Positions 12,211 to 64,000 of a DNA stretch of 64,000 nucleotides are shown piece after piece. Below the pieces are notes generated by a model. It searched no databases. It saw only the letters and a program-made list of their open reading frames with translations, and was not told the DNA's origin. The stretch is from positions 1,798,001 to 1,862,000 of the forward strand of contig JAGPNK010000004.1 in assembly GCA_020746835.1 (NCBI GenBank), read 5' to 3'. The stretch is from Stachybotrys elegans. Its lineage: Eukaryota; Ascomycota; Sordariomycetes; Hypocreales; Stachybotryaceae. Position 1 is the first letter of the stretch. Each line of letters begins with the position of its first letter. The position numbers and the translations under genes are program-made.

Positions 12211-14455
12211 AATAAGGAAAAAAGTATATAGTATAGAATATAAATAGTAAAAAGTAAATAAATAGTAGAGATAGTATCTAGTGCTCTAGTAATTAATATA
12301 GTTATAAATAGTAAAGAAGAATAATAATAAGGCTATTATTAGGCTACCCTTGTGTATAGGGTAGCTAACTGGCTGAGTGGCCAAGCTATAGATAGCTATA
12401 AGTACTATTATAAGCCATACTAAGCTTATACATAGGTATATAATGCAATAGAATGTTAAGCTAGCCTCTTATAGACATATATATATATATATACATATAG
12501 AGGGTTAGGGCGGGGTTAGACTAAATAGAAGGCTCTAACTGACTATAACTATATAAGGTTATTAGTGTCTGGCTGGGAAGCTTTAGTTAATTTATTAAAT
12601 AAGGTTATACTATAGAAGCCTTATTATAACCTATGCCTAAATGGAAAGTGCCACTAGCTATAACTATAAGGTTATAATACTAATAAAAAGCTTTAATAAT
12701 ACTAGAAAAGCTATTACTTCAGGCTACTAATAGAAAAAAGCTTATTTTACTTTTAGTCTATAGCTATATAAAGCCCTTAAGCTCCTAGCTTAAGAGAGAA
12801 GAATTCCTTATCTATATTACTTAAATATCTATTATTATAGAATTAAATAGTAATATAAATATAGTAGAGAGGTTAAATCTCCCTACTATATAAGTAGCTA
12901 TAGTAGCTATAGCTACTACTATAGAAAGGCCTCTATTCTTTCTATTAGTTATCTATAAAATAAATTATCCCAAGGGATTTTCTAATAATAGTATTACTAA
13001 TAGTAATAAAATAACTTTTATATACTCTTAATATATAGTAATTTTAATAAGAAATTATAGCTAAAGCCTAGAAAAAAAAATAAAGAAAAGGGCTTTAGGC
13101 TATATAAGAGACTAGTAATAGAGGCTAGCTATATTAATAACTATAAATAGCTATATATAGGGCTCTAGAATAAATAGAGATATATAGCTTGCTTTAGGAG
13201 CCTTAGCTTGGTTTTTTAATATAGGTTTTTAGTTAGTTTTTTACTTTAGTTATTAAATTAATTACTTTTGCTATCTTGAAATTATATATCTAATGCCTCT
13301 ATAATATAATATTATAGAGAAAATAAACTGTAATAGCTAAAGTATAAATAATATATTAAAAGCTATAGTTATATATAGAAGGCTATAAAGGAACTATAGT
13401 AGTATAAAAAGGTTAAGCTATAAAGAAGCTATAGCTATATAAGAAGGCTAATATATAATATAAAGGAGCTATAGAGAAAGCTAGGCGCTAATTATATAAT
13501 ATAAAGAACCTACTCTTAGAGAGCTGGCTTCTCTTAGCCTTCCTGCTCTCCTGCTTTTTATATCCCAGTTCTAAATTAGCTAGGGAAGGGGGGCAGTAGA
13601 AGTCATTCTATTATATTCTAGACTATTAGTAATACTATTATTAGACCTCTTAGAATGACTTACCTTATGGATAACTTCTTTACTAGTATTATTATAGGCA
13701 GTAGCTAGGGCTATCACTACTATATCTATAGTTATATTATTATAGATATAGATATTATTTACTTATATTTTAACTATAAAGCATAAGTAGGTAGTAAGAT
13801 ATAGATAATAAATTTATCTCTCTTAAGCCAGGGGCTTAAGGGCTTTATATAGCCATAGGCATTAAGCTTTTTAGCAGCTCTATTAGTAGCCTAGAGTAAT
13901 ATTACAGGCTTTTCTAGCTTAGTTAAAGCTTTCCATTAGTATTGTAGCGCTCTCTATCTAGGCATAGGTTATAATAAGGCTTCTATAGCGCAACCTTATT
14001 TAATGAGTTAACTGAAGCTTCCCAGCTGGGCACTGAGCCTTCTATCTGACCCCGCCCCAACCCTCTGTATGTGTATGTGTATCTTGACATCCCGTTGCAT
14101 CACATGCCTACGCATGGTCACTCAGTGTGGCTTGTGACAAAGTCGCAGCCACCTGTGGCTCGGCCACTCAGCCGTTCGGCCAGTCGGCTACCCTGTATAA
14201 GTAAGGGCAGCCTAATAATGGCCTTATTATTATTTTTCTCTACTATTTATAACTATATTAGTTATTAGGGCACTAAATACTATCTCTACTATTTATTTAC
14301 TCTTTACTATTTATACCCTATACTATATACTCTTTTCCTTATTATAAAAAACTTATTTAGTTAGTAATAGTATATAGAAATAGATCTAAAGTAAGCTAGA
14401 AAAAATAGTAAAAAAAAACCAGTGTAAGTCTTTTAAACCTTATACTTAGAAAAGG
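12211..14455 (-). mobile_element. element E copy 1 (span; interrupted by copy 2)
   Basis: The copy begins at the left with the reverse complement of the CCTTATT end and resumes after copy 2 to finish with a decayed CTTAGAAAAG end. The GTATTTTTTTTAT before it (12198-12210) is matched by GTATTTTTTAT after it (14456-14466), a target-site duplication of about 11-13 bp that differs in its T run. The sequence is decayed by C-to-T and G-to-A changes and has no ORF. Confidence 0.8.
13516..14343 (+). mobile_element. element E copy 2, 5'-truncated, nested in copy 1
   Basis: About 830 bp of the 3' part of element E in antiparallel orientation inside copy 1, ending in CTCTTTTCCTTATT. Its left limit is internal to the element, so the first roughly 500 bp are missing. 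The flanks show an imperfect duplication of about 17-19 bp starting ATAAA. It belongs to the subfamily with an AAATTT module. The 65-codon open frame inside it is not conserved in other copies. Confidence 0.75.
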
Positions 14456-14519
14456 TATTTTTTTATAAACTATAATAATTTAGTTTATTTTAATATAAAG
14501 TAAATAAAAATAAATTAAT

Positions 14520-15911
14520 AATAAGGAAAAGAGTATATAATATAGAGTATAAATAGTAAAAAGTAAATAAATAGTAGAGATAGTATTTAATACTTTAGTA
14601 ATTAATATAGTTATAAATAGTAAAGAAAAATAATAATAAAGCTATTATTAAGCTATTTATATAAAGTAGCTAACTAGCTAAGTAGCTAAGCTATAGATAG
14701 CTATAATATTATAAGCTATATATATATAAATATATAATATAACGGGATATTAAGATATATATATATATATAGAGGGTTAGGGTAGGGTTAAACTAAATAG
14801 AAGGCTTTAACTAATAGTACCTAGCTAGAAAGCTTTAGTTAACTTATTAAATAAATGCTAACTAACTGAATAAGGTTACTAATACTATAGAAGCCTTACT
14901 ATAATCTATGCCTAAATAGAAAGCGCTATAATACTAATAGAAAGCTTTAACTAACTATAACTATAAGGTTACACTAGAAAAGCTATTGCTCTAGGCTGTT
15001 AATAGAACTACTAAAAAGCTTATTTAGTCTATAGCTATATAAAGCCCTTAAGTCCCTAGCTTAAAAGAGAAGAATTCCTTATCTATATTATTTAAATATC
15101 TACTAAAATTAATATTATTATAGAATTAAATAGTAATATAAATATAGTAGAGAGATTAAATCTCTCTATTAAAGCTATATAAATAGCTATAGTAGCTATA
15201 GCTATTACTATAGAAAGGCTCTTACTCTCTCTATTAGTTATCTATAAGGTAAGTTATTCTAAGGAATCTAATAATAGTATTACTAATAGTAATAGAATAA
15301 CTTTTATATACTTCTAATATATAGTAATTTTAATAAGGAATTATAGCTAAAGCCTAGGAAAAAAGTAAAGAAAAAGGCTTTAGGCTATATAAGAGACTAG
15401 TAATAGAGACTAGCTATATTAATAACTATAAACAGCTATATATAGAGCTATAGAGATATATAGCTTGCTTTAGGAGCTCTAATAGAAAGAAATACTTAGA
15501 ATTACTCTAAAAGAGCTTTCTTAGCTTGGTTTTTTAATATAGGTTTTTAATTAGTTTTTTACTTTAGTTATTAAATTAATTACTTTTGCTACCTTAAAAT
15601 TATATACCTAATGCCCCTATAATATAATATTATAGAGAGAAGCAATATATTAGAAGCCATAGTTATATATAGAAGCTATACACTGAGCTATAAAGGAACT
15701 ATAGTAATGTAAGAAGGTTAAGCTATAAAGAAGTTATAGCTGTATAAGAAGGCTAATATATAATATAAAGGAGCTATAGGGGAAGCTAGGTATATATAAT
15801 ATAGGGAACCTACTTAGTTAGTAATAGTATATAGAAATGGGTCTAGAGTAAGCTAGAAAAGATAGTAAAAAAAAACCAGTGTAAGCCTTTTAAACCTTAT
15901 ACTTAGGAGGG
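14520..15911 (-). mobile_element. element E copy 3, full length
   Basis: A complete copy of 1,392 bp between the two family ends, flanked by perfect 14-bp duplications AAAAATAAATTAAT at 14506-14519 and 15912-15925. Subfamily with the GAATTC module. No ORF is retained. Confidence 0.9.
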
Positions 15912-15963
15912 AAAAATAAATTAATAATTAAGGTTTTAAAAAATTAAATTAAATTTATATTAT

Positions 15964-16168
15964 AATAAGGAAAAAGTATATAGTATAGAGTATAAGCAGT
16001 AGAGAGTAAATAAATAGTAGAGATAGTGCCTAGTGCTTTAGTAACTAATATAGTTATAAATAGTAGAGAAAAATAATAATAAGGCTATTATTAGGTATAT
16101 AGAGTAGCTAACTGGCTAAGTGGCCGAGTGGCCGAGTAGCTAAGCTATAGGTGGCTATAATATTACTA
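15964..16168 (-). mobile_element. element E copy 4, fragment
   Basis: About 205 bp containing the CCTTATT end in minus orientation. It is joined directly to an oppositely oriented E fragment. No target duplication is visible, so this junction may reflect recombination rather than insertion. It contains the short GAGTGGCC tandem tract. Confidence 0.7.
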
Positions 16169-16847
16169 TTAAATAGCTTAGAGAAAACTACTTAAAAGGA
16201 CTTATTTTAATAATAATATTATTAGAGATATAAATAGAAATAGTAGCTAGAGCTACTATAGCTATTAAAATAGCTTTAGTAAAGGGATTTTATCTCTTTA
16301 CTATATTATTACTATTATTATTATTTAATTCTATATTAATAGATATTTAAATAATATAGATAAGGAATTCTTCTCTTTTAAGCCAGGAGCTTAAGGGCTT
16401 TATATAGCTATAAATTGCTTTATTAGTAGCCTAAAGTAATATTATAGGCTTTTCTAGTATAATCTTATAGTTCTAGTTAGTTAAAGCTTTCTATTAGCAT
16501 TATAGTACTCTCTATCTAGGTATAGATTATAATAAGGCTTCTATAGTATAATTTTATTTAATAAGTTAATTAAAGCTTCCTAGCTAGATACTATTAGAGC
16601 CTTCTATTTAATCCTACTCTAACCCTCTTTTAATATTCTATTATATTATATATCTATATATAAAGTTATAGCTATTTATAGCTTAGTTACTTAGTTACTT
16701 AGTTACTCTATATATTTAATAATAGCCTTATTATTATTTCTCTTTACTATTTATAATTATATTAGTTACTAAGGTACTAAATACTATTTTTACTATTTAT
16801 TTACTCTTTACTATTTATATTCTATACTATATACTCTTTTCCTTATT
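16169..16847 (+). mobile_element. element E copy 5, 5'-truncated fragment
   Basis: About 680 bp of the 3' part of E, with the GAATTC module, ending in CCTTATT. On its right it joins copy 6 at the same position as the joins at 18,713 and 27,544. Confidence 0.7.
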
Positions 16848-17415
16848 ATAAATAATAAAAAGTAAATAAATAGTAGAAATAATATTTAGTACCCTAGTAA
16901 CTAATATAATTATAAATAGTAAAAAGAAATAATAATAGAGCTATTATTAAATATATAAAGTAACTAACTAATTAAGTAACTAAGCTATAAATAGCTATAA
17001 TTTTATTATAAGCTATATATATATAGATATATAATATAATAGAATATTAAAATATATAGAGAGTTAGAGTAAAATTAAACTAAATAGAAGGCTTTAATTA
17101 ATAGTATTTAGTTAAAAAGCTTTAATTAACTTATTAAATAAAATTATTAATACTATAGAAGCCTTATTATAATCTATACCTAAATAAAGAGTACTATAAT
17201 ACTAATAAAAAGTTTAACTAACTATAACTATAAAATTATACTAGAAAAGCTAATAACTATAACTATATAAAATTACTATTACTTTAAACTATTAATAAAA
17301 TAGCCTATAGCTATATAAAGCCCTTAAGTCTTTAGTTTAAAAGAGAAGAATTCCTTATTTATATTATTTAAATATCTATTAATATAGAATTAAATAATAA
17401 TAATAGTAATAATAT
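16848..17415 (-). mobile_element. element E copy 6, fragment
   Basis: Begins about 30 bp inside the CCTTATT end of a minus-strand copy and runs to an internal position, where copy 7 starts. Both outer ends of the original copy are missing. Confidence 0.7.
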
Positions 17416-19981
17416 AATAAGGAAAAGAGTATACAGTATAGGGTATAAGTAGTAGCCCTCCTAAGCATAAGGTTTAAAAGGCTTGCACTGGTTTTTTTTC
17501 ACTGTTTTTTCTAGCTTACCCTGGACCCATTCCCACATACCGTTGCTGACTAAGCAGGTTCCCTATATTACATATGCCTAGCTTCCCCCATAGCTCCTTT
17601 GCATTACATGCTTCTTTACAGCGTACGCTTTCGCATATAACTATAGCTTCTAACGCATCACACACTTTCGCACACAACTATAGCTTCCAATACATTGCTT
17701 GTCATGTCACAGGGGCATTAGGTATACAATTTTAAGGTAGCAAAAGTAATCAATTTAATAACTAAAGTAAAAAACCAACTAAAAACCTATACTAAAAAAC
17801 CAAGCTAATTCTATTAGGGCTCCTAAAGCAAGCCTTATTCTAGGGCCCTATATATAGCTATTTATAGTTATTAATATAGCTAGCCTTTATTATTAGTCTT
17901 TTATATAGCCTAAAGCCCTTTTCTTTATTCTTTTTTCTAGGCTTTAGCTATAATTTTTTATTAGAATTACTATATATTAGGGATATATAAAAGTTATTCT
18001 ATTATATTTTAGACTATTAGTAATACTATTATTAAATCCCTTAGAATAACTTACTTTATAGATAACTAGTAAAGGGGGTAGAGGCCTTTCTATAGTAGTA
18101 ACTATAGCTACTATAGCTACTTATATAGCTTTAGTAAGAAGATTTAACCCCTCTGCTATATTTATATTATTATTTAATTCTATAATAATAGATATAATAG
18201 ATTTAAGTAATATAGATAAGGAATTCTTCTCTTTTAAGCTAGGGGCTTAAGGGCTTTATATAGCTATAGGCTATAGCAGCTTTATTAGCAGCCTAGAGTA
18301 ATATTATAGGCTTTTCTAGCGTCATTAGTTAAAGCTTTCCATTAGCATTATAACACTCTCTATCTAGGCACAGGTTATAGCAAGGCTTCTGCAGTGTCAC
18401 TTCCCAGCCAGGCACCATTAGAGCCTTCTATCTGGTCTGACCCCGCCCCAACCCTGTAAGGCCAGCTTGACATCCCGTTGCATTATATGCCTGTGTATGG
18501 TCACTTAGTGTGGCTTATAATAGTACTTACAGCCACCTATGGCTTGGCCACTTAGCCAGTTAGCTACTCTATATAGATAGCCTAATAATAGCTTTATTAT
18601 TATTCTTCTTTACTATTTATAACTATATTAATTACTAAAGTACTAAAGACTATCTTTACTATTTATTTACTTTTTACTACTTATACTCTATACTATATAT
18701 TCTTTTTTTTATTATAAATAATAAAAAGTAAATAAATAGTAAAGATAATATTTAATACTCTAGTAATTAATATAGTTATAAATAGTAAAAAATAATAATA
18801 ATAAAACTATTATTAGGCTATTTATATAGAGTAGCTAATTAGTTAAGTGGCTAAGCTATAAGTGGCTATAACTTTATTTATAAGCTATATATATATAGAT
18901 ATATAATATAATAGAATGTTAAGATATATAGAGGGTTAGGGCAGGGTTAGACTAAATAGAAGGCTCTAATAGTGCCTGGCTAGAAAGCTTTAGTTAACTT
19001 ATTAAATAAAGTTATACTATAGAAGCCTTACTATAACTATAACTATAACTTATATCTAGATAGAAAGTGTTACTAGTAATACTAATAGAAAGCTTTAATA
19101 ATACTAAAAAAGCCTATAATATTACTTTAGACTACTAATAGAGAAAAGCTTATTTAGCTTATAGCTATATAAAGCCCTTAAGCCCCTAGCTTAAAAGAGA
19201 AGAATTCCTTATCTATATTACTTAAATATCCACTAAGATTAATATTAATATAGAATTAAATAATAATACTAGTAATAATATAGTTATATTAGAGGGATAA
19301 AATCCCTTTACTACTCTAGTAGCTATAGTAGCCCTAGCTACTATCTCTATTTATATCTTTAATAATATTATTATTAAGATAAATTCTTTTAAATAGTCTT
19401 CTCTAAGCTATTTAATAATAGTATTACTAATAGTCTAGAAATAGAATAATTTCTATATATTACTTTTATATAGTAATTTTAATAAAAAATTATATTTAAA
19501 GCCTAAAAAAAAGGGTAAAAAAAGGGGTAAGAGGCTAGAAAGAAGACTAGAGATAGAGACTAATTATATTAGTAGTAAAAGCAAATAGCTATATAGGGCC
19601 CTAGTATAAGGCTTACTTTAGAAGCCCTAATAGAATTGGCTTGGTTTTTTAATTAGGGTTTTTAATTGGTTTTTAGATTAGTTTTTAAATTAATTGCTCT
19701 TACTATCTTTAAATTATATATTTAATGCCTCTATAATATAATGTTTAATTAAATGCTAATACTATTATAGAGAGAATAGACTATGGTAGCTAAAGCGCAA
19801 GCAATATATTAGAAGCTATAGTTATATATAGAAGCATATAATGCAAAGGAGCTATAGAGGAAGCACGTAATATAGGGAACCTGCTTAGTTAGCAATGGTA
19901 TATGGGAATAGGTCTAGGGTAAGCTAGAAAAGACAGTGAAAAAAAACAGTACAAGCCTTTTAAACCTTATGCTTAGGAGGG
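17416..19981 (-). mobile_element. element E copy 7 (span; interrupted by copy 8)
   Basis: The first 39 bp of the copy (17416-17454) and the remainder from about 18,714 to the CTTAGGAGGG end at 19,981 are separated by copy 8. No outer target duplication is evident: the left neighbour is copy 6 and the right neighbour is the gypsy-like carcass. Confidence 0.8.
17456..18713 (+). mobile_element. element E copy 8, full length, nested in copy 7
   Basis: Complete copy from CCCTCCTAAGCAT to TTTTATT, inserted antiparallel about 39 bp from the end of copy 7. It is flanked by TATAAGTAGTA (17444-17454) and TATAAATAATA (18713-18723), an 11-bp duplication whose two differences are both G/A. Its first 250 bp are among the least decayed E sequence in the window. 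Confidence 0.85.
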
Positions 19982-22041
19982 TTATAATTTCTATACTATA
20001 GTAATACTAATAAATATATTTTTAGTTTAAAAGCTAATAGCTATAATTAGTCTAGTTAATCTTCTATTTATTTAAAGATTAGTCTATTATTATTATAGAA
20101 AGGTAGTTTAGTCTAGTCTAGTAGATTAAGCTTATTATTATTCTATATTTACTTTAGGATTAGGCCCTAGGTCTTATTATTAATATAGCTCTAGATAAGC
20201 CTTATATAGAAGTCTAGGCTTAGTTTAATAAGGTATACTATTAGTTATAGAGCTAGTCTAAATCTATCTATTATATAATATACTAATTCTAGTAAATATA
20301 AGTTAAAATTAAAAGTAAGCTATAGCTTAGGTCTATTATTTAGTATATTATTTAGTTAACTAAATTAATCTATTTAATTCTCTAACTATTTATTATATAG
20401 TCTATTTAATATATTAGATATTAAATAGTCTTTATTAGATTTATATACTAGGTATATATTAAACTTACTAATATATTCTATTACTTAAATAATTTTTTTA
20501 TTAGCTATTACTCTTACTATTATATTTAAGATATTAACTTAATAGTTTATATTAATAATAGACTAATAGTTAGTAAAGTATATAATAGGTAGTTTATTAG
20601 TTATATTAACCTACTAATAGGTTTTATAGAGTATTTAAATATAACTACTTGTTTCTATTTCTATTAACTAGTAGGTTTTTTTAGTTATTAATAAAACTCT
20701 TAATAGAAATATAATAGATTTAATAGCTATATATAGAGAATATATTATAACTTATTCTTATTTACTATTATAGATCTTATTAATAGTATTCTTCTTAATA
20801 TAGTATATTATAACTTTAATTCCTTACTTTAATATATTAAAGTTAATAAATAGTATATAATTTAATAAAAATACATAAGTATTTTATTATTAGTTAGAGT
20901 TATCTTAATATTATAGAATAATTTAATTTCCTTTCTAGTTAATATAAGATTTATTAGCTTTTATAATTTAAATCTTAGCTTTATATTTATTAACTTATTT
21001 TCTAACTTTTAATGTATTATAGCTATCTTTTCTACTTAATATATTTATTATAGTTATAGCTTTTACTACTATAGTAGCTTAATAATTATTATATATTTTA
21101 AAATATAATTATAGAAAAAGTTTATAAATCTAAGAAATTACTTTATAGCCTTAAGGCTTATTAGGAATATTAGGCTCTTAATTATTTATAATTTCTAATC
21201 TAATATAGCTAGTCTAAGTATATTAATAAGCTTATCTAAAATCACTATAATAGAAAATATAATAAAGGTTTTAATTAATTTAATACTAATATTTACTACT
21301 AATAGATATATAAATATTTATTCTAGATTATAGAGATAGTTATTAATACTAACTAATACTATTATAATATTATTATAATATACTTTACTATTAATTCTAG
21401 ATAGAATTTAATCTATCTAGCACTAAATATATATATTAAAGCCTTTATATTCTATTATTAATATATTAAATATATACTAACTAATATATATTATAATTAT
21501 AAAGGCCTACTTAGATTCTAGATAGAGTTACTATTAATAGTAAAAGCTTATAGTATCTATTATTATAATATAGATAGCTTAATTTATTTTAAATATTAGT
21601 TTATCTTATTACTTTATTAAATATATATCTATAAAGATTATTTTATTAAGGGTATAGATATTAATAACTATATATTCTTTAATATTTAGTTCTATCTCTT
21701 ATTATATAATAAAGACTAGCTATAAGAATAGTATTTATTCTATTATTTTATAGACCTTATTATTATCTTTATTAAAATATTAGTATATTCTTTATTCTAG
21801 AATATATATTAATACTTATTAATTAGCTATTAAATATATTATATATCTAAGGTATTATTATTATAAATATAAATATCTAATAGATATATAATTATATACT
21901 TTATCTTAAATATATTTAATTATAAAAATAAAACTCTTATTAAATCTATACTTTTATTACTATCTCTATTATTTCTTTTAACTCTTTTTAATTTACTATA
22001 TATATATTATAATCTAGATTAATTAATTTAAAATAGTCTAT

Positions 22042-23344
22042 AATAAGGAAAAAGTATATAGTATAGAGTATAAGTAGTAAAGAGTAAATAAATAGTAGAG
22101 ATAGTATTTAGTACTCTAGTAACTAATATAGTTATAAATAGTAAAGAGAAATAATAACAAGGCCATTATTAGGCTGCCCTTGTGTATAGGGTAGCCAACT
22201 GGCCGAGTGGCCGAGCTATAGGTGGCGTTATAAGCTATACATGCATAGGCATGTAATGCAACAGGATATTAAGCTGGCCTCTCGCAGATATATATATATA
22301 TATATACATATAGAGGGTTAGGGCAGGATTAGACTAGATAGAAGGCTCTAACTAATAGTACCTAGCTAGAAAGCTTTAGTTAACTTATTAAATAAGGTTA
22401 TACTATAGAAGCCTTGTTATAACCTATACCTAGATAGAGAGTACTACTAGCAATACTAATAGAAAGCTTTAACTAACTATAACTATAAGGTTACTAATAC
22501 TAGAAAAGCCTATAACTATAACTATATAAGGTTACTATTACTCCAGGCTATTAATAGAGAAAAGCTTAATCTATGCCTATAGCTATATAAAGCCCTTAAG
22601 CCTCTAGCTTAAAAGAAATAAATTTATTATTTATATTCTACTATTTACTTATATTAGTTAAAATGCAAGCAAATAATACCTATATCTATAATAATATAGC
22701 TGCTTTAGTAGCTATAGTAGCCTTAGCTACTATTACTACTAATATTAGCAAAGTTATCTATAAGATAAGTTACTTTAAGGGATATATAATAGAATAACTT
22801 CTACTACCTCCCTTCCCTTAGAGCCCTAGAGCTATATAAGAAATAGTAAGGTAGAAAGAGCAAAAAGACCTAACTTACTAATAATAGACCCCTTAGTAGC
22901 TAAATTAAGCTAATAAGAGAAGGATAGCTATAGAGCTATAGAGATATATAGCTTGCTTTAGAAGCCCTAATAGAATTAGCTTGGTTTTTTAATATAGATT
23001 TTTAGTTAGTTTTTTTATTTAGTTATTAAATTAATTACTTTTACTATCTTTAAATTATATATCTAATGCCCCTATAATATAATATTATAGAGAGCTATTT
23101 AAGAAGAGCTAGAGTAGACTACAGTAGCCAAAGTGCAAGCAATGTATTAGAAGCTATAGTTATGTATAGAAGCTATATGGCTGTAAAGAAGCTATAGTAT
23201 GTAATGTAAAGGAGCTATAGGGGAAGTATGTAATATAAGGAACCTGCTTAGTTAGTAATAGTATGTGAGAATAGGTCTAGAGTAAGCTAGAAAAGATAGT
23301 AAAAAAAAAACAGTATAAGCCTTTTAAACCTTATGCTTAGGAGG
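22042..23344 (-). mobile_element. element E copy 9, full length, nested in gypsy carcass 1
   Basis: A 1,303-bp complete copy flanked by perfect 14-bp duplications TTAAAATAGTCTAT (22028-22041 and 23345-23358). AAATTT subfamily. It carries TGGCCGAGTGG near 22,200, in the variable 8-bp tandem tract. Confidence 0.9.
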
Positions 23345-24750
23345 TTAAAATAGTCTATTAGTCTATTATATACTATATATATTAGTCTAATAGTATTATT
23401 TATTATAATAATACTATTTATAAATATATTTATTAGAAGTATATATTAAATAGTACTCTCTATTATATTTAGTTTAAAGATAAAATCTTATTTATTTAAT
23501 ATATTATATAAGACTACTATAAATAACTATATATATAGTAAAATAATTTAGTTTATCTTTAATATAACTCTAGCCTTTATCTATTAGATTCTTATTTAGG
23601 CTAATATAAAGATAGTAATTCTATAAGATTATATATATACTATTCTAGAACTAAGATATATATTAATACATTTAGATTCTATAATATCTATTTTTAATAG
23701 TATATTAGCTCTTAATCTATTAACTAATATTACTTTAATTTATAATTTAGTATAGGCTTTTAACTAATCTTTTATTTATTTAAGAAAGTAAAGCTATAGC
23801 TAGATATACTTAATAATATAGTATTTATTATTAATAATACCTTAAATAATTATAGACTTAGGTTTAATATATATCTATATATTAAAGAAGTATATTATAA
23901 GCTATACTTTATTAATTAGGGTTATAGAATAGTCTATATTTATATAAATAGATTACTAGTTAAATTATTCTATATTAGGAATAATCTAAAACCTAAAATA
24001 TAATCAAGAGTAAATACTATATTATTTAAAATACTAAACTAATATATTAAATATAATAATAGAAATCTTAAATATTATATTTAGATTAAAATTAGAATTA
24101 AATATTAGTATAGAGTTAGAAATAAACTTTAATATATTATTAAATCTAATATAAAATATAACTATATCTTTATTTTATATTAATCTATCTTTAGAGTATC
24201 TATTTAACTATACTAACTTACTATTAAATTACTTATTTTATTAAAGTTAATAAATATCTTTAAAATATTAAAAAAGTTTATTTTATAAATAAAATCTTTT
24301 TAAATATTTATACTATTTCTAGCCTTTAACTTTTATATTAAATAGTATAGCTATATATATTATATTATCTTTACTATTTAGTATTTAAATCTATATATTA
24401 TCTAATATAGATAGTTTATATTAATATCTATTCTAGTCTATTTATTTAGCTTTATAATAGTATAAGTATTTATTTTAATAACCTTATAATTAGTTACTTA
24501 ATAACCCCTCTATTAAATCTTAGGTATTATTACTTCTATTAATATATATTACTTATTATAGTAGGGGTCTTTATCTAAATTAGAGTTAATATTATTATTA
24601 TTAGTAGAGCTATTAATATATTAAAAGGGATTAAGTAAAGGGATTATTATTAATATTCTATTCTTATAGTTAGTATTATTAAACTAGAGGGCTCTATTAG
24701 TTATACTATTTATTATTATATTATTAATTTATTCTATTACTATATCTATA

Positions 24751-24926
24751 TGTTAGAATATGGAACGCAGGAAAAGGGGGTCCTGGCTAGTCACATGACT
24801 AGAGCCGGCCCAGACCTCTATTTTAAGGCGTTCTACATACAGCTAGCTAGCTAGAAAGGTAGCATAGAGAATACATATATAGTAACCCCTACACTTATAA
24901 CTAAATCCTAGAAGAGCTAACTAATA
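24751..24926. repeat. left LTR of the short LTR element
   Basis: 176 bp. It differs from the right copy at about twenty positions, all C/T or G/A. Confidence 0.85.
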
Positions 24927-25120
24927 TTAATTAATAGTTAAATAGTAACTATAGATTAATAAGGTTAAAGAATGCCCTAGAATAGTAATAGTCTGGTTAG
25001 CCTAGTACTTGCCTAGGATTATTGTTCTAGAGCGTCTCTCTTGCTATAAATCTATTTAAATCTATAATCTAGCTGCAGGCCTATCCTAATAACCCTCTGA
25101 ATAGATACTCTAGACTAACT

Positions 25121-25580: not shown

Positions 25581-25756
25581 TATTAGAATATAGAATGTAG
25601 GAAAAGGGGGTCCTGGCTAGTTATATGACTAGAGCCAGCCTAGACCCCTATTTCAAGGCGTTCCACATACAGCTAGCTAGCTAGAAAGGTAGCACAGAGA
25701 ATATACACATAGTAACCCCTACGCTTATAACCAAATCCTAGGAGAGCCAACCAACA
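25581..25756. repeat. right LTR of the short LTR element
   Basis: 176 bp, equal in length to the left LTR. It keeps the CA terminus that has decayed to TA in the left copy. Confidence 0.85.
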
Positions 25757-52198: not shown

Positions 52199-55100
52199 TA
52201 TAAAAGTATAAAACTACTAGCTAGATTTTATACTCTTTTTAATTAAATAGTAAAAACTATAGGCCTTTTATTTAAAGAGTTATTTTAAACTTTTAATATA
52301 AGTATCTCTCTTACTATTTAATAGTTTATTAATTAATAACTTACTATTATATAGCTAAAGTTCTTTAGTATTTTAATACTATTATTTCCTTTCTTTAAGC
52401 CTAAGTTTAAAAAGAGAATATTAATAAGAATTAGTTTAGTTAGTTAGCTAGTAGTTAGCTATTCTCTTACTACTCTATTATACTATAGCTACTATTATCT
52501 ATAGAAATTATTACTTATAGAAATTAATATATATTACTTTCTCTTCTTTCTTTCTTTTCTTTACTATAATATACTTTTATTAATAACTTTACTATTTTTT
52601 TATTATATTTCTTTCTTTTCTTTCCTTTCTTTTTTCTTTTTTCCTAAGGCTATTACTAACTTATCTATAAATACTTTATATTCTCTATCTCTCTTTTTTC
52701 TTATATTATTAAAAGAATAATAGTCTTTAGCTCCTTTACTAAGAGATTATTTTAGAGCTATTATTTATAGCTATTAGGCTAAATTTATATTTAAATTTAT
52801 TTAAAGTTATAATATTTTTAAAGTTATTAAATAGCTTCTATATAGATTTTATTTAATCTTTTTAATAGATCTTTATCTTTCTAACTTTACTATAATCTAT
52901 CTTATAAATCCTTATTTTTAAAATACTTTATACTTACTATTTCTTTTTTAAAGCTATTATTTTATTATATTAATATTAGTTTTAGTTTTATATTATTAAT
53001 AATTTAAAAAGACAATAGATTATCTATAGTAAATATTAATAACTAAATATAGAAATAAGGGTTTATTTATAAAGATATATCTAACTCTATGCTATAAATA
53101 TTAATAACTTTTATAACTTAGTATTTCTTATATATTTAAACTAATTTCTATAATAGCTAGTCTATATTAATATTTTTAAAGTTTAATTAAATCTAGTTAT
53201 TTATTTAATAATTTAGTACTAGAGTCTATTATTTATTAACTATATTTTCTATATACTATTATACTATAGCTATAGCTACTTACATAAAGAAAGTTATCTC
53301 TCTTAGCTTTTTAATAAAGCTCTCTACCTTTACTTTTTTAAAGTAATTAGTATTAAGCTATAAACTATAGACTTAATTATATTTATATAGTAACTATAGG
53401 TAATAAAGAAAGGGCTAAGTTCTATTATTAAGATATTCTAGTTATTAATAGTAAGTATTATATTAGAATATAGCTATAACTAATCTTTCTAGATATATAT
53501 AATAAAGATATAGAGATAGACTAAGATTTTTAGTTTATTCTTTCTATATTACTATTTATTTTTAAATAAAAGGCTATATTAAGCTATTACTTAATTTTTA
53601 TTAACTTATAAAACCTTTACTAGAACTTTTTAATTTAGTTTATTTCTCTATTTAATATAATAGCCCTTAGAAATCTATAGAAATACTAAAAGTAATTAAT
53701 AAATTACTCTATATATACTTCTATAGTAATACTTAGTATAGATTTTAGAATTATTTCTTTAAAAAGTCTATCTATAATAACTATTAGATTAATTAGATTT
53801 CTATTTATAAAGGCTAGTAGCTTAACTATAAGATCTATAGATATCTTACTCTATAGCCACTGTAGAACTAATAATAGATAAAGAAGTCCTTACTTAGTAT
53901 ATTACTATACTATTCTTTTACTATAGACTTTATAGTTTTTAATAAAATATTTAATCTATTAATATAGCCTAGGCTAGAAATATCTATAACTAAATAATAC
54001 TATAGTTATTTTTCTACTAAAGTAATCTATAACTATTAAGTTATATATATACTAAATTAAGGCTATTTAAAATAGCTTATATACTAGTATTTAAATTCTT
54101 TTATAAAAGTATAAGATATTAGTATTATTAATCTTATATTCTATTATTAAAATAGCTAGTACTTTACTATTATTAGTCTTTACCTTTTTTAAAAAAACCT
54201 TTTATTATTTAGTATTAATTTATATATTATTTAATAGCTTTTATTAGTAATAATTTTTTAATTCTAGAGACTTTATAAGTTAAGGTTTATAAAGATTTTA
54301 TTATTATTAAAATAACTCTAACTATTAATACTAATTATTATTATTTAGCTACTTTTTACTAGGGGATTATCTACTAGCTATTTAAGCTATATAAGTTATT
54401 ATACCTTTCTAACTAACTATTTATCTTCTATATTCTTTAATATATTCTACTTTTAATAAAAAAAGTATTTCTCTATTTATTTATAGTTTTTAAGTAATAA
54501 ACTATTTAGAAATAGTATTTCTTTAGTTTCTTTAATTAATAAAACTATTAATCTAAAAGATACTATATTTAAATAAAGTATTTAAGGTTTTTATAATCTA
54601 TTAGAATTATAAAGGGTTTTACTATACTTTTTAGCTTTACTTTCTATATTTTTAAATAGCTAACTATTATTAATAGCTTCTTATTATATATAGTATAGTT
54701 ATACTTTACTATATCTAGCCTATAAAAGTAATATACTATAGAAATAAAAACTTCTTATTTATTTATCTATAATAAATAATAATTAAATATATAATCTAAG
54801 TAATTTATTTTAATAATAGTTCTTTTATTAGGGTTCTACTAAGTTAATATAGATTTTTAAGGAATTTACTCTTAAATTAGTTAAAAGTTTATTTTTATTA
54901 TTTATTATTTAAATAGTATATCTTTTTTAGTTAAGGTTAGTAATAGTCTTACTATTTTAGTATATTTATTAATAAACTAGTAATAGAAGTTAGAGAATTC
55001 TAGGAATAATCTAATGCTTTTTACTATTAAAAAAGCTTTCTATTTATAAATAGCTTATAGCTTCTCTAGGTCTATTTATATCTCTTTCTTTACTTTTATA

Positions 55101-57416
55101 ATAAACTCTAGAAATTTAGTTTTTTATATAAAGAACTTATATTTATTAATATCTAAGTATAGACTAGCTACTTTAAGATAGCTAAGTATTAGCTTAACCT
55201 TTACTAGATAGTTATTTTATAAGCTATTAGTCTAAACTAATATATTATCTAGATAGACTAAGTAAAATTAATCTAGATAATCTTATAGTAATTTATTAAT
55301 ATATTACTAAAGGATAGTAGAGATATTTAATAGACTAAATAAAATAACTAACTATTTAAATAAATCTAGCTTTATTTAGAAAGCTATTTTCTATTTATCT
55401 TCTTTATAGATATATAGCTTATAGAAAGCTATTTTAATATTAAGCTTAATGAACTATTTAGCCTTTAATAAATTAAATAATATCTCTTTTATTAGAGATA
55501 GTAAATATCTATTTACTTTTATTATTTAATTAAATATATAGCAGTTTATATAAAATTATAGGCCTCTTTCTAGCTTTTATATAAAGGGAATAAAGGCTCT
55601 AGCTAGAGAGCTACATATATAGATATAGCCCTTATTTAGTAGCTAAATAAGTATTTTTCTTAAAACTAATAACTTATTCTATATTATACTATATAAAGGT
55701 CCCTATAGTAATTAAAGTATTATTCTATTAGAGTTAAGAAGAAATAGCTTATTATTTACTTTTTCTTTAAATAGATCTTAAAATTCCTTTAGTTCTCTAA
55801 ATAGAGTATTTTTAATCTTTATTTCTTTCTTAAAGATAAGGGCCTTATTAATATTAGCTAGAGTTATTAAAAAGATAGTTATTAGCTTCTTTATAGCTAT
55901 CTCTTTTTTTTTTAAATATATTAAAGCTTTATTTCTATAGCTATTTCTACTAACTAGACTATATTTTTTATATTCTATATTCTTTTATTAATTAAAAAGT
56001 AACTATTTTTATATAACTATAAATTCTCTATTTACTTTAAAATAAATATATATTTCTTTATATAGTATAGTATATTTTCTATCTCTATCTAGGGTTTTCT
56101 AAGGATAATATTATAGATTAGATTACTAATTATATATATTTAAACTTAGTAAATATAGCTATTAAAATCTGGATTAAAGTATATAACTTTATTAATAATT
56201 TCTTTAGAATTAGTAGCTTATTATAGCTATCTTAGAGATATAGTAATATATAGAAAGGCTAGCTTATAAAGTAGCTAAAAGTAAACTATTAAATAGTAAA
56301 GATACTTTAAATCTATTAAAGCTTAAGTAAAGTATATTTTATTATAGAGTATACTAATTAAAAATAGATTTATATCTATTATTAGTATCTTTATTCTTAC
56401 TTTATTACTATCCTTTAGTTTATATTTCTATATATATTTCTATATAGAAATAGCTAGTTTTCTACCTTTTTTTTATTCTCTAGATTAAGCTTATTATTTT
56501 TATTATTTATTATAAAGGCTATTATATAGATAGTCTCTAGCCTTTTAATTAGTAAAAAGAGATAGTAAGCAATTCTATAGTTTCTATAGCTATAGTAAAG
56601 ATAGTATTCTTCTATCTTATATTTCTTATATTCTTTATTAATTATTTAATAAGCTTACTATTTCTTTACTAGCTTAAAGTAAGTACTTTCTATTATAGTT
56701 ATAGTTATATCTTCTTTAATATCTATCTTTAAATAGAATATACTTAATATTTCTTTTTAATTACTTTAGTATATTAATACTATACTTAAGTATCTCTATC
56801 TATATATTACTTTCTATCTAGCTATAATATATTATATCTCTTTAATATAGTTATAGTATTCTATATATAGATTTATTAGTATTAATATACTTTTTAACTA
56901 TATATTTAAAGCTTTTTTAATATTATAATTTTTAGAGTATTAGACTATACTATTCTCTAAGTATTTATAAGTATTTTTTTTATTTAATATGGAAGGTTAT
57001 AAACTTAATATTATTTCCTTATTTAATATTTAATAGTATAGTAGCTACTATTTACTTTTAGTATCTATTTAAAAACTAGAAATCTAGATATATCTAGAAT
57101 TAATCTAGATTATAGAATCCTTTATCTCTCTTTAATATATAGTAGCTATATACTAATATTTAAACCTTTTTAATTATATTATTATAAATAGTATAGAACT
57201 TATTAATAGCTATACTAATAAATTAGATATCTTTAAATAGTTTATATTAAAGCTTTTTTTTCTATACTTAGTATTTAATTTACTTACTATTAAATTTCTT
57301 TAGCTAGAATAGTTACTTTCTTTATATGAAGTTATTAATAGTTTTATTATTTAGGGTTTAGATATTTATTAAAGGCTGAATTAGGGATATAAAGATTAAA
57401 TTATAAGTAATAGCTT

Positions 57417-58788
57417 CCTCCCGAGCATGAGGTTTAAAAGGCTTGTACTGTTTTTTTCACTGTCTTTTCTGGCTTACCCTGGACCCATTCCCACACACCG
57501 TTGCTGGCTAAGCAGGTTCCCCACATCACATACGCCAGCTTCCCCCACGGCTCCTTCGCATCACATGCTTCTTCACAGCTCAGCGCACAGCTTCCGCACA
57601 CAACTACAGCTTCTAACACATCGCACAGTACCTTCCGCACACAACTACAGCTTCTAATACATTGCTTGCGCTTTAGCTACTATATTATATCACAGAGGCA
57701 TTAGGCATACAATTTAAAGGTAGCAAAAGTAATTAATTTAATAACTAAATAAAAAAACCAACTAAAAACCCATACTAAAAAACCAAGCTAAAGCTCTCTT
57801 AGAGTAACTCTAACTATCTCTAGCTTCTAAAGCAAGCTAGCTCTCTATTACTCTTTTATTAGCTTGATTTAGCTATTAAAAGGCTTATTATTAGTAAGTT
57901 AAGCTTTCTTACTCTTTTTACTCTACTATTTTTTATATAGCTCTAGGGCTCTAAAGAAAGGGAGGTAGTAAAAGTTATTCTATTTCTAGACTATTAGTAA
58001 TACTATTATTAAATCTCTTAGAGTAACTTACCTTATAGATAACTTTATTAGTATTTGTAATAGTAGTAGCTAAGGCTACTATAGCTACTAAAATAGCTAT
58101 ATTATTATAGATATAGGTATTATTTACTTATATTTTAAGTAACTAATATAAGTAAGTAGTGGAATATAGATAATAAATTTATCTCTCTTAAGCTAGGGGC
58201 TTAAAGGCTTTATATAGCCATAGGTATAAATCAAGCTTTTTAGCAGCTCTGTTAGCAGCCTGGAGCAATGGCTTTTCCAGCTTAAAGCTTTCCATTAGTA
58301 TCAGTATACATTTATTACATTTTCTCCTCAATATAGTATCTAATGTACAAGCAACCTTGTGGTTGCAGCCAGTGGCGCTCTCCATTTGGGCACAGGTCAC
58401 GGTCACAGTCACAACAAGGCTTCTACAGCATCAGCAACCTTATTCAGTCAGTCAGCGTTCATCTGATAAGTCAACCGAAGCTTCCCAGCCGGGCACCATC
58501 AGTCTGACCCCGCCGCAACCTTCTGTATGTGTACGTGTATGTATGTGTCTGCAAGAGGCCAGCTCGACATCCTATCACATCACATGCCTGCGCATGCTCA
58601 GTGTGGCTTGTAACACTACCTATAGCTCAGCCACTCAGCCAGTTAGCTACCCTATATACCGAACAATAGCCTTATTATTATTTCTCTCTACTATTTATAA
58701 CTATATTAGTTACCAGGGCACTAGATACTATCTCTACTATTTATTTACTCTTTACTACTTATACTCTATATTATATACTCTTTTCCTT
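57417..58788 (+). mobile_element. element E copy 24, full length, least decayed
   Basis: 1,372 bp, starting CCTCCCGAGCATGAGG, with 17-bp duplications ATTATAAGTAATAGCTT (57400-57416) and ATTATAAATAATAGCTT (58789-58805), one G/A difference. The parts at 57,417-57,700 and 58,350-58,620 keep CpG sites and most cytosines, so this is the best template for the ancestral sequence. TGGCTAAGCAGG at 57505-57516 fits an RNA polymerase III A-box consensus, but I see no B box. Short open frames here are not shared by other copies. Confidence 0.95.
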
Positions 58789-59520
58789 ATTATAAATAAT
58801 AGCTTTTTATAAACTAGTTAGTTACTTAAGTATATAGTTATAAAAGTTCTTAATATCTTAGTATAATTAGACTATCTTACTAAATAAAATATATAGATCT
58901 ATTTAAAAAGCTTAAATAATTATTATAGTTTTACTAGGATTAAGCTACTTATTTATTAATTAGAGTAAAGGGCTTCTTTATAGTTATAGTTTAAAGCTAT
59001 CTTCTATAATAGAATCTATCTAGACTTTATAGTTAATAAGCTATAACTATACTATAGTTAGGGAGATTAGTTAAAATATAATAGGCCTATTAAGGCTAGC
59101 TTAAAATAAGGCTGAATAAATGTATTAATTAATTTAAAGAGTAAAGAAAAAAAGGAAAAAGAAACTAACTAGTAAAGAATTTATAGAGAAATAGCTTAGA
59201 ATGTATTGGCTTACTAATATTAGCTTATATAGACTATGCCTATAATATAAATAGTCTATTATAATAAAGAAACCCTTCTAAATATAAAATTTAAAAGACT
59301 TATACTATTTCTTTTTTACTATCTTTTCTAGCTTACTTTAGATTTATTTCTATACTTTATTACTAACTAAGTAAGTTCCCTATATTATATAATTAATATC
59401 TAGCTTTCTCTATAGCTTCTTAGTATTATATACTTCTTTATAATATATATATATAGCTTCTATATATATTACTTATACTTTAGCTACTATAGTTTATTCT
59501 CTTTATAATAGTATTAGTAT

Positions 59521-60927
59521 AATAAGGAAAAGAGTATATAGTATAGAGTATAAATAGTAAAAAGTAAATAAATAGTAGAGATAGTACTTAATGCCCTAGT
59601 AACTAATATAGTTATAAACAGTAGAGAAAAACAATAATAAGGCTATTGTTAGGTGTATAGGGTAGCCAACTGGCTGAATAGCCGAGTGGCTAAGCCACAG
59701 GTGGCTGCAAGCACTATTACAAGCTATATATATACAGGCATGTAATGCAATAAGATGTTAAGCTAGTATATATAGAGGGTTAGGGCAGGGTTAAACTAGA
59801 TAGAAAGCTCTAACTAACTATAACCACACAAGATTGCTAGTGCCTAGCTGGGAAGCTTTAGTTAACTTATTAAATAAGGTTATACTATAGAAGCCTTATT
59901 ATAATCTATGCCTAGATAGAGAGCGCTACTAGCAATGCTAATAGAAAGCTTTAAGCTAGAAAAGCCTGTAACTATAACTATATAAGGTTGCCATTGCTCC
60001 AGGCTGCTAATAGAGAAAAGCTTAATCTACCTTACCTATAGCTATATAAAGCCCTTAAGCCCCTAGCTTAAGAGAGATAAATTTATTATCTATATCCCAC
60101 TATCTACTTATGCCTTATAGTTAAAATATAAGTAAATAATATCTATATCTATAATAATATAGTAGAGAGATTAAATCCCTTTACTAAAGCTACTCTAGTA
60201 GCTATAGTAGTCTTAGCTACTACTATTATAAATACTAATAAAGTTATCTATAAGATAAGTTACTCTAAGGGATTTTTTAATAATAGTATTACTAATAGTC
60301 TAGAATATAATAGAATAACTTCTACTATTTTCCTTTTTCTAGAGCTCTAGAGCTATATAAAAAGCAGTAGAGTAGAAAAAGCAAAAAGGCCTAACTTACT
60401 AATAATAAGTACTTTAATAGTAAAATCAAGCTAATAAAGAGGAGATAGAGAGCTGGCTTGCTTTAGGAGCCCTAATAGAATTAGCTTGGTTTTTTAGTGT
60501 GGGTTTTTTAGTGTGGGTTTTTAGTTAGTTTTTTTATTTAGTTATTAAATTAATTACTTTCACTACTGAATTATGTGCCCAATGCCTCTATGACATGATG
60601 TTTAATTGAATACTGATACTATTGTAGAGAGAAGCAATATATCGGAAGCCATAGTCATGTGCGGAAGTGTACGATGCATCGGAAGCCGTAGTCATATGCG
60701 GAAGCTATACAGCTGCAAAGGAACTGTAGTTGTGTGAGAAGGTCAAGCTACAAAGAAGCTGCGGCTGTATGAGAAGGCTAACATGTAATATAAAGGAGCC
60801 GTAGGGGAAGCACATAATGCAGGAAACCTGCTTAGTCAGCAATAGTATGTGGGAATGGGTCTAGGGTAAGCTAGAAAAGACAGTAAAAAAAAACAGTACA
60901 AGCCTTTTAAACCTTATGCTCAGGAGG
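59521..60927 (-). mobile_element. element E copy 26, full length, nested in copy 25
   Basis: 1,407 bp with perfect 13-bp duplications ATAGTATTAGTAT (59508-59520 and 60928-60940). AAATTT subfamily, less decayed in its 5' half. Confidence 0.95.
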
Positions 60928-60955
60928 ATAGTATTAGTATTTAATTAAATATTAT

Positions 60956-62198
60956 AATAAGGAAAAGAGTATATAGTATAGAGTATAAATAGTAAAGAGT
61001 AAATAAATAGTAAAGATAGTACCTAGTGCCCTAGTAATTAATATAGTTATAAATAGTAAAGAAAAATAATAATAAGGCTATTATTAGGCTGCCCTTATGT
61101 ATAGGGTAGCTAACCGGCCGAGTGGCTGAGTGGCTAAGTGGCTAAGTGGCCGAGCCATAGGTGGCTGTGACTTTATTATAAGCTATACATGCGTAGGCAT
61201 ATAATGCAATGGGATATCAAGCTAGCCTTAGAGGGTTAGGGCAGGGTTAGACTAGATAGAAGGCTCTAATAGTATCTAGCTAGGAAGCTTTAGTTAACTC
61301 ATTAAATAAGGTTATGCTATAGAAGCCTTACTATAATCTATACCTAGATAGAAAGTACTACTAGTAATGCTAATAGAAAGCTTTAATTAAGCTAGAAAAG
61401 CCATTACTTTAGGCTACTAATAGAGCTATTAAAAAGCTTATTCTGCTTTTAGCCTATAGCTATATAAAGCCTTTAAGTCTCTAGCTTAAGAAAGAAGAAT
61501 TCCTTATCTATATTACTTAAATCTATTATATTTATTAATATAGAATTAAATAATAATACTAGTAATAATATAATAGAGGGATAAAATCTCTTTATTAAAG
61601 CTACTTTAGTAGCTATAGTAGCCCTAGTTACTATCTCTATTTATATCTTTAATAATATTATTATTAAGGTAAGTTTTTCTAAGCAATCTAATAATAATAT
61701 TATTAATAGTAATAGAATAATTTCTATATACTGCCTTTATATAGTAATTTTAATAAAAAATTATATCTAAAGCCTAGAAAAAAAAATAAAGAAAAGAATA
61801 AAAGGCTAGAGAGAAGGCTAGAAATAGAAACTAATTATATTAGTAGTAGAAGCAAATAGATAGAGCTATAGAAATATATAGCTTACTTTAGAAGCCTTGG
61901 CTTGGTTTTTTGATTAGGGTTTTCAGTTGGTTTTTTAGATTGGTTTTTAAATTGATCGCTCTTGCTACCTTTAAATTGTATGCCTAATGCCCCTGTGACA
62001 TGACAAGCAATATGTCAGAAGCTGTAGTTGTGTGCGGAAGGCTGCAAAGGAACATGTGATGCAAAGGAGCCGTGGGGGAAGCACGTGATGTGGGGAACCT
62101 GCCTAGTTAGCAATGGTATATGGGAATGGGTCTAGGGTAAGCTAGAAAAGACAGTGAAAAAAACCAGTGCAAGCCTTTTAAACCTTATGCTCAGGAGG
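60956..62198 (-). mobile_element. element E copy 27, full length, nested in copy 25
   Basis: 1,243 bp with perfect 13-bp duplications AATTAAATATTAT (60943-60955 and 62199-62211). GAATTC subfamily. It has the longest 8-bp tandem tract, near 61,112-61,160. Confidence 0.95.
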
Positions 62199-62829
62199 AA
62201 TTAAATATTATATTATAGGGATATTAGATATATAATTTAAAGATAGTATAAGTAATTAATTTAATAACTAAACTAAAAAACTAAATAAAATTTTATATTA
62301 AAAAACCAAGCTAAACTAAAAAGAGCTCTTTTAAAGTAACTCTAACTATCTCTTTCTATTAGAGCTTTTAAAGTAAGCCTTATACTAAAGCTCTCTATCC
62401 CTCTTTTATTAGCTTAATTTTACTATTAAAAGGCTTATTATTAATAAGTTAGGCTTTCTTACTTTTTTTACTTTATTATTTCTTATATAGCTCTAGAGCT
62501 TTAAAAAAAAGAAAAATAGTAAAAGTTAGTCTATTATTATTAGTAATACTATTATTAATTAAAAAAGATCTCTTAAGGTAACTTATCTTATAGATAACTT
62601 TATTAATATTAATAATAGTAATAGCTAAGGTTACTATAGCTATTAAAGTAATAAAAGAATTTAATTCCTTTATTATATTATTATAAGTATAGGTATTATT
62701 TATTTATATTTTAACTATAAAGCATAAGTAAATAGTAAAATATAGATAATAAATTTATTTTTTTAAGCTAGGGGCTTAAGGGCTTTATATAGCTATAGAC
62801 TGTTCTATAAGTAGCCTAAAGTAATATTA

Positions 62830-64000
62830 AACTAGTATTAATAAACCTAGACATTCTCTTTTATCTCTAATAAAGATTCAATCTATCTATCTAACTATAA
62901 AACTAATAATTAATATTAAAAGTTATATTTTAATTTTAATTAGTATTTAATATAATAGCTAAATAGATATTAATATACTTATTAATAAGTTTAATTACTA
63001 ATAGAAAGAGTATAATAGAGATTAATTCTATTAGTTAATTATTAAAAAAGATAGATAAATAGTTTTTACTTAATAAATTTATAGCTATATAGACCCTAAT
63101 AAATTAGTTAATTAATAATAAGCTTTATCTATTAAATTAAGGTTTTATATATAGTTTATAAATTTCTATCTTTTTTACTTCATACTAATAGTCTTTTATT
63201 TAGATTATTTTAAATAGCTAAGAATTAAATAGATTATTTATAAGCTTATTTCTATATAATAAAAGGATTAGAATAATATTAATTAAAGTGCTTACTATAT
63301 TTAATCTAATAGATATAGTATTTATAGATTTATAAAAATAAATATAGCCTAAGGTATAGTAGATCTATAATTTAATATAGTCTATATCTATTTTAACTAT
63401 TAGCCTTACTAATAAATAGTTCTAAATGATTTTTAAATAATTTCTTTAGTTTAGCTAGATAATTTAATAATAGTTATAAGTATTTAACTAGAGATATACT
63501 TTTAGAATTAAAAATAACTAGAAGATTATATATATTAAATATTTTAATCTATAAAAGACTATAATTAAAAAGAAAGATATATATAGAGCTAGAACTAATC
63601 TAATATAAAGAAATATTAATTTATTTATTAATTTAGTTAGAGATAATATTATAATATAAAATAGAAAGGATTATATTAGACTTAATATAATCTAGCTTTT
63701 AAAAGAAAAAGCTTTAATATAGTAAATAGATTTAATAAAAGATATTAAAAAGGAAAGAATTAAGCTATCTATTAATAATTAGATTAATATAATAAGGAAA
63801 AGAGTGTATAGTATAGGGTATAAGTAATAGAAAGTAAATAAATAGTAGAGATAGTGTTTAGTGCCCTAGTAACTAATATAGTTATAAATAGTAGAGAGAA
63901 ATAATAATAAGGCTATTATTAGACTGCCCTTATGTAATTAGATTAATATATTATAAAAATAGTTCTATTTTAATTATATAAATACTATTTAAAAGCTATT
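62830..64000. other. unassigned AT-rich element remnant, runs off the window
   Basis: Abuts the broken end of E copy 25 at about 62,830 and continues to the window edge, interrupted by E copy 28. No protein motif was recognisable. Since copy 25 is cut here, this may be an element inserted into or recombined with it. Confidence 0.4.
63791..63934 (-). mobile_element. element E copy 28, 144-bp 5'-truncated copy
   Basis: The last 144 bp of E in minus orientation with perfect 15-bp duplications TAATTAGATTAATAT (63776-63790 and 63935-63949). Confidence 0.95.

Follow-up and report, generated by a model that had tools for sequence, protein, structure and literature searches.

E copies in an AT-rich block of contig C34

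The window analysed here is a 64,000 bp stretch of the hypocrealean fungus Stachybotrys elegans, corresponding to C34:1,798,001–1,862,000 in an assembly of 43.4 Mb and 61 contigs. GC content was 49–54 % over window bases 1 to ~12,000 and 16–31 % beyond, and the TpA/ApT ratio was 1.4–1.6 across the window from ~12,000 onward; low GC combined with such a ratio is the mark of repeat-induced point mutation (RIP). The AT-rich block extends to ~C34:1,891,000, a total of ~81 kb, and a comparable block of ~107 kb is found on C1 (C1:380–486 kb). The block houses many copies of a repeat, here called E, and the present work concerns the derivation of these copies from a gene on contig C14 and the reverse transcriptase (RT) frame that adjoins it.

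The least-mutated copy of E found (L022:2982–4361 on C5; 1,380 bp, 50 % GC, with the 14 bp duplication ATAGCCTAGCTCTA) was taken as the reference. With this copy as nhmmer query, 29 E segments were identified in the window, 16 on the minus strand and 13 on the plus strand; 24 reached the 3' end, 13 were full length and together they cover 49 % of window bases 12,211–64,000. A sequence-only reading of the window had proposed a real family of at least 28 copies on both strands with fixed ends, and both points were borne out: CTCTTTTCCTTATT occurred 34 times at ≤2 mismatches (18 exact) against 2.2 expected, and CCTCCYRAGCAT 19 times against 8.9 expected. Genome-wide, the degenerate 5' end pattern (≤2 mismatches) gave 277 matches and the 3' end pattern 402, with 0 matches to the reversed control patterns over the whole genome. 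Including those of the window, 130 E segments were located in ~273 kb of sequence examined. Full-length copies (n = 37) spanned 1,164–1,494 bp; only the upper part of this range agrees with the 1.3–1.5 kb proposed before, and the spread is partly due to alternative splicing.

The features of the block are given below in window coordinates, with positions within E in brackets. Unless stated otherwise, segments were located by nhmmer, with duplication anchoring added where a duplication is given by sequence or length.

12041..64000, no strand: AT-rich, RIP-mutated block housing the E copies; left edge set by eye
12212..13301, minus: E copy (336–1379)
13506..14342, plus: E copy (534–1379), 3' part less mutated
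14521..15911, minus: full-length E, duplication ATTAATTTATTTTT
15969..16134, minus: E copy (1204–1375)
16242..16846, plus: E copy (725–1379)
17456..18710, plus: full-length E, duplication not significant
18723..19981, minus: E copy (1–1342), back to back with copy 17456..18710
22046..23344, minus: full-length E, duplication ATAGACTATTTTAA
26205..27543, plus: full-length E keeping C14 intron 5, duplication not significant (nhmmer, alignment to C14)
27546..27730, minus: E copy (1174–1350)
28008..29115, plus: E copy (294–1379)
29188..29471, minus: E fragment (833–1128)
29534..30802, plus: full-length E, duplication ATAATAATATAGC
30881..31475, minus: E fragment (1–694)
31481..31808, minus: E copy (1066–1379)
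33194..34483, plus: full-length E, duplication ATCTATAGTTAGAT
34880..35016, plus: 5'-truncated E (1243–1379), duplication ATAATACTTAAATA
35120..35721, minus: E copy (839–1379)
36249..36335, plus: E copy (1293–1379)
41607..43100, plus: full-length E, duplication ATAGAAATTATAAT
46400..46559, minus: 5'-truncated E (1220–1379), 16 bp duplication with one mismatch
47092..48444, minus: full-length E, duplication ATATATAAGAATAAT
48884..50166, minus: full-length E, duplication not found
50843..52198, plus: full-length E keeping intron 2, duplication ATAAAAGTATAAAAC (alignment to C14, duplication anchoring)
57417..58790, plus: full-length E keeping intron 23, duplication ATAAATAATAGCTT with one mismatch (alignment to C14, duplication anchoring)
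59522..60927, minus: full-length E, duplication ATACTAATACTAT
60957..62198, minus: full-length E, duplication ATAATATTTAATT
62302..62821, plus: E fragment (419–934)
63792..63932, minus: 5'-truncated E (1239–1379), duplication ATATTAATCTAATTA

Origin from spliced RNA, insertion and decay

The gene from which E derives lies at C14:291,404–287,689 on the minus strand (~3.7 kb). Spliced alignment of the L022 copy resolved it into 33 exons of 12–143 bp and 32 introns of 45–195 bp (median 64), 30 of them GT-AG and two GC-AG, with donors following GTACGT, GTAAGT and GTATGT. The number of possible placements averaged 1.8 per intron, too few for aligner choice to explain the GT/GC-AG ends, and a branch-like site (CTRAB) was present in 27 of the 32 introns, compared with 6.3 on average and at most 13 when the introns were shuffled 1,000 times. 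When the unspliced first 1,404 bp of the gene were searched against the genome, 140 matches were obtained from the best 40 of 199 candidates scored. Only C14 covered the full 1,404 bp; the other 139 matches were exon-sized. Six of these ran through a single complete retained intron, and in a few different splice sites were used. Diverged tandem exon–intron modules with a self-identity of 59–74 %, in which the intron ends GGCAACCTTGTGTGGTTGCAG recur, occur in the 3' half of the gene (C14 ~288,200–288,900).

Alignment of the 37 full-length copies, including that on C5, to the C14 gene allowed no introns other than the known ones. Among 937 scorable introns, 898 were wholly absent (in 589 of these the exons met precisely at the annotated sites), 32 were partly aligned and seven were retained, for example intron 23 in the copy at 57,417–58,790, intron 5 at 26,205–27,543 and intron 2 at 50,843–52,198. 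Parental introns have been lost, as in processed retrocopies, but the poly(A) tail of such copies is missing. In the E copies examined, the spliced RNA of a single gene, that on C14, has been copied into DNA, and a few of them keep single introns; although the sequence-only reading had recognized a retroposon, it had missed this spliced nature, the single multi-exon parent and the second pair described below.

The 13,581 differences from C14 comprised 11,977 C>T or G>A changes in the copy, 272 in the reverse direction and 1,332 transversions. C was changed at 75.5 % of CpA, 76.8 % of CpG, 23.4 % of CpC and 15.8 % of CpT sites. The aligner penalizes C>T and G>A mildly, which eases alignment and should not produce a 44:1 asymmetry. 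The C14 gene itself was unmutated by RIP (GC 0.527, TpA/ApT 0.97) and no duplication was found flanking it; together with the one-way differences, this makes C14 the parent and not a copy. The E copies decayed by RIP after insertion. No match of ≥150 bp at ≥80 % identity was found between the parent and the E copies examined, and the L022 copy alone matched E DNA over ≥400 bp in 61 places, counting its match to itself. The last exon of E at L006:62–203 (C41) was 96 % identical to the parent, which suggests recent activity of E.

Target duplications were first scored against the 99th percentile of 1,899 shuffled (mispaired) flank pairings. Among 96 copies with a 3' end, this cut-off was exceeded by 29 of the 37 full-length and 16 of the 59 shorter copies. 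A stricter test, in which the duplication had to be anchored at both junctions, was tried on 93 copies, of which 91 had a recognizable 3' end motif; 34 of these carried such duplications, 13 of them in the window. Their sizes were 12 bp (three copies), 13 bp (12), 14 bp (12), 15 bp (six) and 16 bp (one), and 32 of the 34 start with ATA. Duplications of 11–17 bp had been claimed before; their kind is upheld, but under strict anchoring the sizes narrow to 12–16 bp, some of the extra bases being chance extension in AT-rich DNA. Eleven of the 34 belong to 5'-truncated copies and lie within a few bases of the truncation point. Most apparent 5' starts near E 333–366, and all of those near 828–848, lacked a significant duplication and probably reflect breaks in the alignment of mutated copies, not true truncations; one copy starting at E 336 has a low-complexity duplication. 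The fixed 3' junction is CATC|ATA, which reads TATT|ATA after C-to-T decay. Among 26 full-length copies with a duplication, the bases directly after it were one to three of the C with which E starts in 23, GCC in two and CT in one; the extra G before CC could be a copied cap, two copies being too few to rely on. No long A tract was present at the 3' junctions of the 96 copies, as the sequence-only reading had stated, a few copies having six to eight A nearby (one such run inside the duplication). The paired long terminal repeats (LTRs) and 4–6 bp duplications of LTR elements were not found; their insertion mode had been rejected before, and the 12–16 bp duplications and 5' truncation agree. 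A fixed 3' junction, duplications of 12–16 bp and 5' truncation indicate target-primed reverse transcription, by which the E copies were inserted, as had been proposed.

E was not assigned to a known family. No tRNA was found in the window and no Rfam match in the window or in the L022 copy, in keeping with the earlier view that no named family is known to have these ends, and E has no polymerase III-type head from tRNA, 7SL or 5S as would mark a short interspersed nuclear element (SINE). Nor does E contain an endonuclease/RT frame such as an autonomous long interspersed nuclear element (LINE) would have.

Reverse transcriptases beside intron-rich RNA genes

An open frame of 1,236 codons with an RVT_1 match ends 254 bp upstream of the E gene on C14, on the same strand, and behind it E sequence lies in pieces parted by GT...AG stretches. 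A related frame on C23 (1,093 codons; RVT_1 and Exo_endo_phos_2) is 48 % identical to that of C14 over residues 226–1088, and its endonuclease part shares 43 % identity with the N-terminal part of the C14 frame. The 20 best relatives of the C23 frame, from 7,997 candidates scored, had no listed RNase H domain; the best-scoring named relative was from Trichoderma (40 % identity), and the nearest solved structures were LINE-1 ORF2 proteins. A third RT of this clade, on C3, has one in-frame TGA. The C14, C23 and C3 frames each occurred once in the genome search.

At 73 bp past the C23 frame lies CCCCCCCCTGAGCATGGGGT (the counterpart in E being CCCTCCCGAGCATGAGGT), followed by another intron-rich stretch that ends, like the C14 gene, in CATCATAAA. 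Searched against the genome, 2,700 bp of the C23 gene gave at least 156 matches among the best 40 of 317 candidates. C23 alone matched in full; the other matches listed were exon-following blocks, mostly last exons, on many contigs at 75–100 % identity; an intron was retained in at least one of them (C11:430,701), and in some the splice sites differed. Identities of up to 100 % suggest recent activity. Six of these copies were examined and all were exon joins or a last-exon piece, with short flanks of 34–62 % GC. Duplications were found in five of the six (exact, of 13, 14 and 16 bp; with one mismatch, of 12 and 15 bp) and in none of 30 mismatched control pairs, the sixth copy beginning outside the stretch examined. 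The longest copy had 11 of 12 junctions of the GT/GC-AG type and one that was not, under the same aligner that favours canonical sites. As a control, 1,800 bp behind an unrelated LINE on C16 matched, apart from its own locus, only a duplicated segment and one further short stretch, none of them exon-limited. The exon sets of the C14 and C23 RNA genes were weakly alike (best E-value 0.009). C23 presents the same arrangement, a diverged RT with its own exon-limited retrocopies. A third pair was considered at C3, where downstream repeats looked exon-limited, but it was rejected as their junctions were not GT-AG.

The possibility had also been raised that a LINE elsewhere in the genome shares the tail of E. 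Three LINE 3' tails were read (C22, C37 and C16 families) and ended in CCTAA, TCCAA and TTGTA repeats, unlike E, so these LINEs were discarded as sources of its tail, and the C38 LINE flank (L043) was covered by a motif scan only; what did emerge is E as an intron-containing gene behind a LINE-type RT. A LINE family with near-identical copies, some with long open frames, was observed on C22, C38, C6 and C54, and its C22 copy (L042, C22:23,401–25,400, ~480–510) ends in a telomere-like CCTAACCTAACC tail.

Proposed mechanism and alternatives

We consider it very probable that E consists of retrocopies of the spliced C14 RNA, inserted by target-primed reverse transcription and decayed by RIP; the adjoining RT would have copied them, and introns would have shielded their single parent. 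The parent would be transcribed by RNA polymerase II from a start at CCCTCCCGAGC, and the copying enzyme would be the endonuclease/RT of the adjoining open frame. The CATC|ATA junction matches CATCATAAA of the parent, so that synthesis could be primed by three target bases paired with the RNA; AUA after CAUC in the RNA would then pair with the nicked target and fix the 3' junction, and the ATA start of the duplications fits such priming. Spliced copies could not act as new intron-bearing sources, leaving a single parent to drive the family. RIP reportedly requires a few hundred base pairs of homology. Introns would cut the homology between parent and copies into exon-sized stretches too short for RIP, and in the absence of any long match the parent would escape mutation and stay intact while the copies would not. 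We are evenly divided on a broader reading, that a LINE-type RT and its own intron-rich non-coding template form a two-part locus whose introns hide the source from RIP, with at least two such pairs in the genome; a protected parent may then seed unlimited mutated copies that fill AT-rich, perhaps centromeric, blocks.

Several points weigh against this mechanism. Splicing is deduced from genomic copies. The exon map was built from a single copy, L022, which is one of the 37, with an aligner that favours GT/GC-AG, and the two GC-AG introns, whose neighbouring exons match poorly, may have been set at the wrong place. A polymerase II transcript would be expected to leave poly(A), which these copies do not have, and the shielding from RIP is a correlation in one genome. 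The link between enzyme and RNA is one of position at two loci, with a partner shown for two of the three enzymes of the clade. The C14 and C23 RNA genes are weakly alike, sharing one inner stretch of ~100 bp at 69 % identity (E-value 3e-5), and the likeness of their 5' ends was judged by eye (BLAST E-value 3.1).

Other long LINE frames in the genome, for example open LINE-type frames of 1,290–1,373 codons on C22, C38 and C37, also count against the adjoining RT as the enzyme. LINEs are known to copy foreign RNAs, and E might have been moved in trans by one of them (e.g. of the C22/C38, C37 or C16 families), its neighbouring RT being coincidental. We regard this as unlikely, though not negligibly so, given that the three LINE tails are unlike E and that two loci of one RT clade each have an intron-rich RNA gene directly downstream, both with the same terminal sequence. 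A single autonomous LINE with an intron-rich 3' region, from which E would arise by an internal promoter or processing of a long RNA, would account for RT and E sharing one strand, with 254 bp between them at C14 and 73 bp at C23. This is rather doubtful: BLAST detected neither enzyme nor spacer DNA in the blocks with E copies, although heavily mutated pieces could have been missed; in 23 of 26 full-length copies the duplication is followed directly by one to three of the initial C of E; the C14 gene has no flanking duplication; and its 3' flank does not recur in the 900 bp upstream of, and just into, the enzyme frame.

Descent of E from a coding gene, as processed pseudogenes and not a non-coding family, is improbable. 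A 221-codon open stretch without ATG near the start of the spliced RNA (equalled in length in 14 of 500 shuffles) and exon lengths that are multiples of three in 18 of 33 cases speak against a non-coding RNA and make a coding past possible. However, the longest ATG frame in the spliced RNA of 1,384 nt is 120 codons, equalled in length by 92 of 500 shuffles, and no convincing protein-level similarity was found between this RNA and the partial C23 exon set. The longest stop-to-stop frame on the sense strand of the L022 copy is 134 codons, consistent with the absence of evident coding noted from sequence alone, and with moderate confidence the E RNA is taken to be non-coding. That E is a self-propagating SINE-like element whose C14 copy acquired its 32 introns later can be dismissed as highly improbable: some fungi are known to gain introns by insertion, but nearly all differences lead from the base seen in C14 to the one that RIP produces, no duplication flanks C14, and single C14 introns are retained at the matching place in some independent copies.

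Processed pseudogenes and other LINE-made retrocopies share with E the spliced RNA, target-primed reverse transcription and duplications of 12–16 bp, whereas in E a single gene has given rise to hundreds of copies, poly(A) is missing, the parent lies beside an RT frame and the 3' junction is shared. Foxy and Mg-SINE, which are fungal SINEs, resemble E in being non-autonomous, without evident coding and inserted in the LINE manner. The same likeness extends to the SINEs of Aspergillus fumigatus (PMC5063351). E differs from the fungal SINEs in having no tRNA or Rfam match, in its length of 1.2–1.5 kb and in being spliced from a 33-exon gene. The composite retrotransposons of apes of the SVA type are long, non-coding and of polymerase II type, with spliced variants; in comparison with this general description E lacks poly(A) and has a single intron-bearing parent. 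The C23 frame (RVT_1 and Exo_endo_phos_2) is like fungal non-LTR RTs without an RNase H domain, but the C14, C23 and C3 frames each occurred once in the genome search and two have a spliced RNA gene behind them. Insertion of the LINE type, retrocopying of spliced RNA and RIP are each already known; to our knowledge there is no instance of their combination, and no comparable system was found in the open-access literature, the search leaving subscription papers, Repbase and Dfam outside its range.

Among the matches listed, E clusters in large blocks, many of them close to contig ends (C1:380–486 kb, C34:1,810–1,891 kb and near the ends of C2, C3, C4, C5, C7, C8 and C23), as if assemblies break in AT-rich, perhaps centromeric, arrays. 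The E-rich blocks, AT-rich and ~81 and ~107 kb in size, may be centromeres. Elsewhere in the window, an Inp1 frame lies at 1,133–3,034, and pieces of a STAND-like gene (NPHP3_N and a weak DUF7791) at 10,258–11,571 border the AT-rich block. Window bases 36,340–41,606 are RIP-mutated DNA containing a degenerate RT (40,447–40,815), which was rejected as a LINE partner of E as its residues, read by eye, look like those of a Ty3-type remnant.

If the proposed mechanism is true, it would offer a testable answer to how a repeat family persists in a genome that mutates repeats, namely through one source so shredded by introns that no long stretch of it is still matched in its spliced offspring. Also described would be an apparently non-coding gene that has 32 introns and genomic copies as its visible product, and a pairing of RT and RNA at two diverged loci that is a possible builder of AT-rich, perhaps centromeric, chromatin.

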